From the NCBI GenBank assembly GCA_903905285.1, contig CAIVFQ010000038.1:1-13689 (forward strand): DNA of 13,689 nucleotides. Direction: 5' to 3'. The position numbers and the translations under genes are program-made. The notes under the pieces were generated by a model. It was not told the DNA's origin. It was given only the letters and a program-made list of their open reading frames with translations, and ran no database searches. Within the stretch, counting starts at the first letter, position 1; each line of letters begins with the position of its first letter. The DNA comes from an uncultured Alphaproteobacteria bacterium. GTDB lineage: Bacteria > Pseudomonadota > Alphaproteobacteria > Paracaedibacterales > CAIULA01. Positions 4,011 to 5,333 of the stretch are shown here, piece after piece.

Positions 4011-5333
4011 ATGAATAGAATTCTTAAACATTTGCTGCTCTCAACCGTGGCGTTAGGGTGTTCTCTTGGTGCACTTCGGGCAGATGACGAGGTAGCAGCC
4101 CTTGTCGTAGATAACGGTTCAGGAATAGTGAAGGCTGGGTTTGCCGGGGATGATGCGCCACGCGCTGTATTTCCATCCATCGTGGGGCCTCCCAGACACA
4201 AAGGTGTAATGGTGGGTATGGGGCAAGAAGACACTGAAGACACCGTTGTGGACGAAACGCTTAAGTGTCCTATTGAACATGGCATCGTTACCAACTGGGA
4301 CGATGTGGAAAAAATTTGGCACCATACGTTTTACAATGAATTGCGTGTCGCACCAGAAGAAGATTCCGTATTGCTGACAAAGGATTCTCTAAATCCTGTG
4401 GCAACGACTGCTACTGAATCGGGCGTCTTAGTGGATATGCGTGATGGTGCCACATATGCTGTCCCATTTTATGAAGGAAAAGTCGTGCGTTCTGCTGTTT
4501 TGCAGTCAAATTCAGGAGAAAAAGTCCTCGCGGATTATTTAATGAAAATTCTCACAGAGCGGGGATATTCTTCTTTAAGTGAGGATACCGTGCAAGATAT
4601 CAAGGGAAAATTATGCTACGTAGCCCTTGATTTTGAGCAAGAAATGAAGGCAGCAGCATCCTCTTCCTCTCTTGAGAAATCTTATGAATTGCCTGACGGT
4701 CAAGTGATAACCATTGGGAATGAACGTTTTAGAGCCACGGAGGCCCTGTTCCAACCCTCCTTTTTGGGAATGGAATCGGCTGGAATTCACGAAACGATTT
4801 ACAACGCCATTATGAAAACTGATGTCGACATTCAAAAAGATTTGTATGTCAAGGTTGTTTTATCTGGCGGAAGCACAATGTATCCAGGCATAGCCGACAG
4901 AATGAAAAAAGAACTAACAGCGCTTGCACCCTCAACAATGAGAATTAAAATTATTGCCCCACCTGCTGGCCCAATTAGTAGGCGCTATAAGGAGGTTGGA
5001 ACCAAGCCCGCCTATGAAGATTATCAGCAGGAAGAGGGAAGGAAATTTTATCTGAATCGAAACGCAGTTCAAGGAGCAGTGGGGTCCGTCCCTTTCGTAG
5101 GGAGAGCACTTGCAAGGATCATACAGGTTTTCACAGCCGAAAGACTTGATGTTGATCATGCGATAAAATCCTTAGCTTGTTTTTATATTGGAAGCCAGGA
5201 AATCTTTCCAAAAAAACCAAAATCAGAAGCCATATTCCAAGCCACACTAACAGAAACTCATGTCATATCAGGTAGTGGTATTGGCGATCGCGCCAAACAA
5301 GGAGGCGGACGGGACGATCTAGAGACTATATGA
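4011..5333 (+). CDS. Exported eukaryotic-type actin with internal deletions and a replaced C-terminus
   Basis: The 440-residue protein is conventional eukaryotic actin joined to a bacterial signal peptide. Residues 1-24 (KHLLLSTVALGCSLG core, ALRA cleavage site) form the signal; the mature protein would start DDEVAALVVDNGSG, as actin does. Residues 25-72, 87-129, 138-186 and 196-318 align with actin, including phosphate loop 1 (D34 in VVDNGSG), the DNase-binding loop, the PIEHG and IWHHTFYNEL blocks, and the adenosine region (LSGGSTMYPG, 284-293). Changes: about 6 residues are lost after the DNase loop; 8 residues (130-137) stand in place of actin 113-149, removing the catalytic Gln137; His161 is Tyr149; phosphate loop 2 is DMRDG instead of DSGDG. 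After 318 (IIAPP) the last actin segment is replaced by about 122 unrelated residues with a hydrophobic helix-like stretch (352-375). No introns. AAGGA lies 9 nt before the ATG. Export is inferred from the signal peptide; the function, probably aimed at the host, is inference. Confidence 0.95.
   Translation: MNRILKHLLLSTVALGCSLGALRADDEVAALVVDNGSGIVKAGFAGDDAPRAVFPSIVGPPRHKGVMVGMGQEDTEDTVVDETLKCPIEHGIVTNWDDVEKIWHHTFYNELRVAPEEDSVLLTKDSLNPVATTATESGVLVDMRDGATYAVPFYEGKVVRSAVLQSNSGEKVLADYLMKILTERGYSSLSEDTVQDIKGKLCYVALDFEQEMKAAASSSSLEKSYELPDGQVITIGNERFRATEALFQPSFLGMESAGIHETIYNAIMKTDVDIQKDLYVKVVLSGGSTMYPGIADRMKKELTALAPSTMRIKIIAPPAGPISRRYKEVGTKPAYEDYQQEEGRKFYLNRNAVQGAVGSVPFVGRALARIIQVFTAERLDVDHAIKSLACFYIGSQEIFPKKPKSEAIFQATLTETHVISGSGIGDRAKQGGGRDDLETI

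Follow-up and report, generated by a model that had tools for sequence, protein, structure and literature searches.

Why should a bacterial chromosome carry a gene for actin, and what could its product do there? The question is raised by contig CAIVFQ010000038.1 of an uncultured alphaproteobacterium (assembly GCA_903905285.1, order Paracaedibacterales), which was analysed over its whole length of 13,689 bases (the window, one complete contig of a 217-contig assembly). It holds an open reading frame (ORF) with an ATG start and 440 residues, an exported-actin candidate. Judged by its sequence, the chromosome of this bacterium carries an actin gene of eukaryotic type, as had been predicted from the window alone, and the product appears to have been remodelled extensively and fitted with a predicted export leader.

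The identity as actin is supported by several comparisons. The 440-residue protein scores 250 bits on Pfam Actin (PF00022; gathering score 27), and its top PDB match, C. elegans actin (447 bits), falls into two stretches: protein residues 25-135 correspond to 2-118 of actin, and 134-319 to 146-334. Identities were counted against an entry for primate beta-actin (P0212), and beta-actin numbering is used for residues; 219 of 294 positions (75%) are identical over residues 25-318. The by-eye counts of the original prediction were reproduced against this entry (42/48 in residues 25-72, 37/43 in 87-129 and 104/122 in 197-318, the last given there as roughly 104/121), and in residues 130-196 only 29 of 67 positions match. 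Leaving aside one close relative, P0001, the next 24 rows are 75-78% identical, gaps excluded, in a comparison with proteins of 330-520 residues, and both named animal actins and unnamed sequences are among them. A gene of the same genome (G000) that we named MreB-like from its own sequence reaches 41 bits on Pfam Actin, versus 142 for one part of the window gene and 101 for the other. The best bacterial actin model in NCBIfam, syringactin NF040575, matches residues 259-320 with 72.6 bits when its cut-off lies at 300, a wide shortfall, and the crenactin cut-off is likewise not reached (21.7 vs 630 bits); PMC12645912 deals, in its available part, with a ParM-derived family. In a tree of 46 rows picked by hand from hits and loci, with no outgroup of MreB or actin-related proteins, the window protein groups in a 41-row set that holds the eukaryotic actins and contains many open forks. 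The 75% identity of the actin part to animal actin makes horizontal acquisition from a eukaryote likely, although calling this the only reasonable source, as the original prediction did, was too strong: this tree singles out no donor, and a viral or archaeal one is conceivable. The stated lack of introns is supported, and a ribosome-binding-site-like motif, AAGGAAA, lies upstream of the ORF.

The picture of a conventional actin is nevertheless incomplete, since an internal gap, the loss of catalytic and barbed-face residues and a new tail had all been overlooked. The protein lacks counterparts of beta-actin residues 58-65, 115-143 and 200-202 and has other sequence in place of the C-terminus from 336 on; 53 reference residues are gapped in the window protein and 53 in P0001. 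The 115-143 gap is in frame and removes the hinge helix together with the catalytic Gln137. Of other residues, His161 is changed to Tyr, DSGDG to DMRDG and Glu214 to Gly. The catalytic Gln137 and His161 and the intact phosphate loop 2, as found in polymerising actin, are all missing or changed. These gaps, the lost catalytic residues and the replaced C-terminus rule out an intact actin. For the subdomain 3/4 half, an actin fold is predicted, with support from a structure model and a structural match.

The losses are not spread evenly over the molecule. Retention was counted by face, using presumed contact lists, the beta-actin reference and 5000 random draws that were not matched for burial. 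Only two results stand out from the draws: the protein keeps just 14 of 42 barbed-face residues, below all 5000 draws to three decimals (0.000), and 12 of 13 residues of the hydrophobic plug (draws as high, 0.013). Retention elsewhere is 25/40 for the pointed face (draws as high, 0.466), 14/25 for the nucleotide site and 6/20 for the barbed cleft. The D-loop, the pointed-face elements of subdomain 4 and the hydrophobic plug are largely kept. The tail that replaces the C-terminus gave no Pfam match at E 1, no second copy in G000 and, at E 0.01, nothing in the remaining 41 genomes of the order. It was rejected as a remnant of the actin C-terminus, as 1645 of 3000 shuffles for the window protein and 699 of 3000 for P0001 score equally well.

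The same build recurs in P0001, a protein of 438 residues that is 94% identical to the window protein and has the same leader, gaps and tail. Its cluster, represented here by one sequence, comprises four member sequences on four contigs, the longest of 6,471 bases and none of them the 13,689-base window contig. The two proteins are identical at all 24 leader positions; they differ at 3 of the 294 positions of the actin part and at 22 of the 122 of the tail (Fisher p 4e-10).

Two of the 42 genomes of the order matched, G000 and a genome of another family (G013), and a second search with a G013-headed alignment again returned these two; within the family of the window, one of eight genomes carries the gene. 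Evenly drawn samples of 385 genomes of the class and 398 of the phylum yielded only G000; G013 evidently did not fall into them, so that such samples can miss rare carriers. In a named genome collection, two metagenome-assembled genomes (MAGs) of Myxococcota appear to encode full-length, leaderless actins that are 52-54% identical (L011 282-1424 and L012 7965-9128). Carriage of the window actin by a plasmid or phage was considered and set aside, no match having been found in either; viral contigs gave three pattern matches, none of them confirmed, with patterns that came from the window protein alone and could miss distant viral actins. Genomes of the order measure 1.1 to 2.8 Mb, and both a place in the Holosporales and an intracellular lifestyle are putative, resting on the original prediction and these small genomes.

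Residues 1-24 of the window protein are leader-like: MNRILKH is followed by LLLSTVALGCSLGAL and then by RA before DDEV, and the leader joins directly onto DDEVAALVVDNG, the actin N-terminus. The Sec signal peptide claimed earlier stands as a Sec-like leader, read from hydropathy and comparison, and Sec export of the protein is predicted. The leader scan covered 285 proteins (279 database hits and 6 from loci). In 34 of them the first actin strand is preceded by 14-60 residues, and the nine most hydrophobic of these N-termini belong to the window protein, P0001, three actins of G013 and their database twins. A secretin was not matched in G000; one match was found in G013, and 6 of 14 control genomes matched. 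Aligned with four leaders of the G013 type, the window leader scores 36.5-41.5, a level that 12 to 46 of 5000 shuffles also reach; nine further leader-like N-termini from these genomes do not exceed 27. This similarity of leaders is a hint that the window and G013 actins go back to a single exported ancestor.

The G013 proteins form a second leader-bearing actin family in the order, which had escaped the original prediction. Three tandem genes (413, 414 and 401 residues) lie on a 28.6-kb contig (L013 6766-10517), and their products are full length, tailless and 38-44% identical to the actin part of the window protein. A database contig of 9,723 bases encodes P0121, 99.7% identical to the third G013 actin, and P0131, 82% identical to the first. 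The first G013 actin matches chain 4efh_A, 'Actin-1', from end to end (451 bits); the chain is presumably from Acanthamoeba. All three have replacements at positions 137, 157, 161 and 213, and their D-loops are shorter by 2, 3 and 7 residues. Pairwise nonsynonymous and synonymous divergences (NG86 dN/dS values 0.24/0.68, 0.32/0.88 and 0.36/1.31) have dN below dS, which speaks for selection on the protein. The three proteins keep 29, 29 and 31 of 42 barbed-face residues and 21, 16 and 10 of 40 pointed-face residues; ordinary actins also keep the barbed face best (41/42 in both Cyanidioschyzon and Vitrella), so that barbed retention in G013 is partly general. The bodies of the proteins, judged by tree and shared derived residues, do not show the single exported ancestor at which the leaders hint. 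With the window and G013 actins held in a single clade, the best tree is 12.2 log units worse, which is not rejected (approximately unbiased test, p 0.149). The window protein shares 5/86, 5/84 and 4/102 of the partner's derived positions with the G013 actins and 2/34 and 2/33 with the Myxococcota actins, with no excess for G013. Beside the array, at L013 10746-14974, lies a gene that combines amino-acid permease and histidine-kinase domains, and after it one that combines response-regulator and guanylate-cyclase domains.

How does this protein compare with known actins? With conventional eukaryotic actin it shares the identity over residues 25-318 and the subdomain 3/4 fold, and it is set apart by the leader, the gap at ~115-143, the changed nucleotide site, the replaced C-terminus and the tail. 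Bacteria with actins of eukaryote type have been described before. In Microcystis aeruginosa PCC 7806 the protein ActM shares 65% identity with eukaryotic actin and is ascribed to transfer from a eukaryote; it polymerises in the cell and adjoins a profilin gene, and the term 'signal peptide' is absent from the available text (PMC3254629). ActM thus resembles the window protein as a eukaryote-type actin in a bacterium and differs in polymerising inside the cell and in its paired profilin. Profilin (PF00235) gave no match in G000 or G013, and the control genomes gave none either, so its absence is not shown. BARP of Haliangium ochraceum (PMC3035250) and the actin of 'Ca. Uab amorphum' (PMC6906331) also group with eukaryotic actins, and no leader, gap or tail is described for them in the available parts of these papers. 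The Myxococcota MAG actins are unlike the window protein in being leaderless and full length. The G013 tandem actins come from the same order and share a similar leader, an actin body and the replacement of catalytic residues, whereas they are full length, lack the tail, keep the barbed face and have a shortened D-loop. Among the titles and abstract openings listed, from a literature in which most subscription journals are missing, none mentions a bacterial actin with a leader, and the parts of papers covered describe neither a leader nor a lost catalytic segment nor a new tail. As far as these partly available sources go, the exported, remodelled variant is therefore new.

On balance, we favour a eukaryote-derived actin that has been turned into an exported, non-polymerising mimic aimed at a host. 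The combination of lost filament-building segments with a predicted export signal suggests that the product probably acts on the skeleton of a host cell and not inside the bacterium. After predicted export from the cytoplasm by Sec, some further route would take the protein across the outer membrane and into the host cytosol, where the kept D-loop, subdomain 4 and hydrophobic plug could dock, most simply on the barbed ends of filaments. An incoming actin subunit joins the barbed end of a filament by its pointed face, so a protein with pointed elements and no barbed face could end growth; the docked protein, lacking a barbed face of its own, would stop barbed-end elongation. Monomer-binding proteins acting through the barbed cleft would not be expected to recognise it, and the tail would provide localisation or partner binding. 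Of the mimic, decoy or capping protein offered by the original prediction, an exported mimic of the host cytoskeleton is in this sense supported as the leading inference.

A number of observations weigh against this mechanism. Retention of the entire pointed face does not exceed the average, residues 202-205 of actin are missing or altered, and the contact lists behind the face counts are presumed ones. The N-terminal half was modelled with low confidence, and a full-length G013 control was also poor (mean predicted local distance difference test score, pLDDT, 49). The hydropathy margin of the leader is thin (1.91 vs 1.88 for a plant protein, the best non-bacterial row). A Sec leader by itself reaches only the periplasm and no secretin was matched in G000, so delivery into a host is putative. 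Export is predicted from the sequence, and the tail might do all the work.

The last point leads to a rather unlikely alternative, in which the exported protein stays in the envelope and serves the bacterium, with the actin half as a periplasmic or surface scaffold and the tail as the working part. The Sec-like leader, the missing secretin match and a tail of no known family that is the fastest-differing part between the window protein and P0001 would all fit such a role; the near-identity of the two actin parts, however, exceeds the needs of a bare scaffold, and the sister family in G013 has no tail. It is quite unlikely that the protein is instead a decoy or sponge that uses its kept actin surfaces to bind host actin-binding proteins or bacterial or host factors without capping: the D-loop, subdomain 4 and plug would be available for this, whereas the barbed cleft, which many actin-binding proteins use, is lost.

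Two further explanations are gene decay and an assembly error. The gaps, the lost catalytic residues and the presence in only one of eight genomes of the family could reflect a transferred gene in decay, which we consider very unlikely. In simulations that applied random substitutions and no other mutations to the present frame, 0 of 300 frames stayed open at 25% divergence of the actin part and 29 of 300 at 10%, while the real frame is open, its gaps are in frame, the leader and ribosome site are intact, and P0001 shows the same build with almost no change in the actin part. An assembly accident is unlikely because that 94%-identical protein has the same leader, gaps and tail on other contigs, and a chimera of bacterial and host DNA in particular is hardly credible. 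The window is a single contig of the 217-contig assembly and repeats bracket the gene, as a chimera might have it, yet leader, ribosome site and new tail are non-host features, and the G+C content of the gene (0.452) is close to that of the window (0.442). Its codon-use score (-0.063) is like those of the two leader-bearing neighbours (-0.050 and -0.153), though below those of six housekeeping reference genes scored against themselves (0.046 to 0.159).

The mimic that we favour admits a bolder, and unlikely, version: bacteria of one order would have turned host actin into an exported, catalytically dead, half-faced family, in which the window copy, with its pointed-face elements, is a barbed-end chain terminator and the tandem sister copies, with their retained barbed face, tie up pointed ends or actin-binding proteins, so that actin itself is the tool. 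Bacteria act on the host cytoskeleton via enzymes and actin-binding proteins; if the reading is true, the export of actin as such would represent another kind of strategy. A review of the Holosporales names, in the parts covered, type VI secretion as the most credible delivery candidate and describes interaction of Holospora with the host cytoskeleton; an actin gene is not reported in those parts.

Coordinates of the actin gene, its parts and its neighbours in the window
Feature	Position	Strand	Basis
Alpha/beta hydrolase (Peptidase_S9 family), leader-like N-terminus by eye	1381..2433	+	Pfam
Neighbour gene, leader-like N-terminus, multicopy family, no Pfam family	2727..3644	+	
Palindromic repeat element upstream of actin gene	3802..3900	+	
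AAGGAAA, ribosome-binding-site-like	3997..4003	+	Sequence
Actin gene with predicted leader, 440 codons and stop	4011..5333	+	ORF, Pfam, PDB match, beta-actin alignment
Predicted Sec leader, residues 1-24; 24/24 identical in P0001	4011..4082	+	Hydropathy and comparison
Actin residues ~2-114 (subdomains 1 and 2, with D-loop, without residues 58-65)	4083..4397	+	Alignment
In-frame gap junction, actin residues ~115-143 absent (Gln137, hinge helix); edge alignment-dependent	4395..4412	+	
Subdomain 3/4 half, protein residues 135-318 = actin ~147-334	4413..4964	+	Pfam, PDB match, model and structural match
122-residue tail replacing actin C-terminus; sole relative found, P0001	4965..5330	+	
Same palindromic element, inverted, downstream of actin gene	5397..5507	-	

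The surroundings of the gene are bacterial, as had been stated: HemW matches its NCBIfam model above cut-off, a major facilitator superfamily transporter and a sigma factor match Pfam, and tgt has 72-76% identical counterparts in six sister genomes (the names tgt, dnaA and fumC for window genes are presumed). Three same-strand genes between hemW and tgt have leader-like N-termini, as judged by eye, and the actin gene is the last of them. Counting the gene itself, the family of the second gene has nine matched stretches on six contigs of G000, while the remaining 41 genomes have none; six more frames were read, and the members of the family bear leaders and diverge at their ends. Two palindromic elements of ~100 bases in inverted orientation, not noticed earlier, bracket the actin gene alone and may have helped it to move or rearrange; their 15-base core occurs seven times in G000, and a backward-read control gave none. 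In five fetched sister genomes of the six, tgt adjoins other genes and no other window gene was matched there, so an empty site cannot be read. Promoter- and terminator-like sites around the actin gene are at chance level (4 vs 3.4 and 3 vs 2.4). Farther along the window, a hypothetical protein adjoining dnaA (9679-10215) has a lipoprotein-like start (LTGC, by eye) and no Pfam family. The sigma-factor gene is split into two frames, of which the first (10453-10860) holds region 2 and the second (10920-11393) region 4; this split could reflect a real frameshift or an assembly slip. The gene contains an exact 59-base tandem duplication at 10687-10804.
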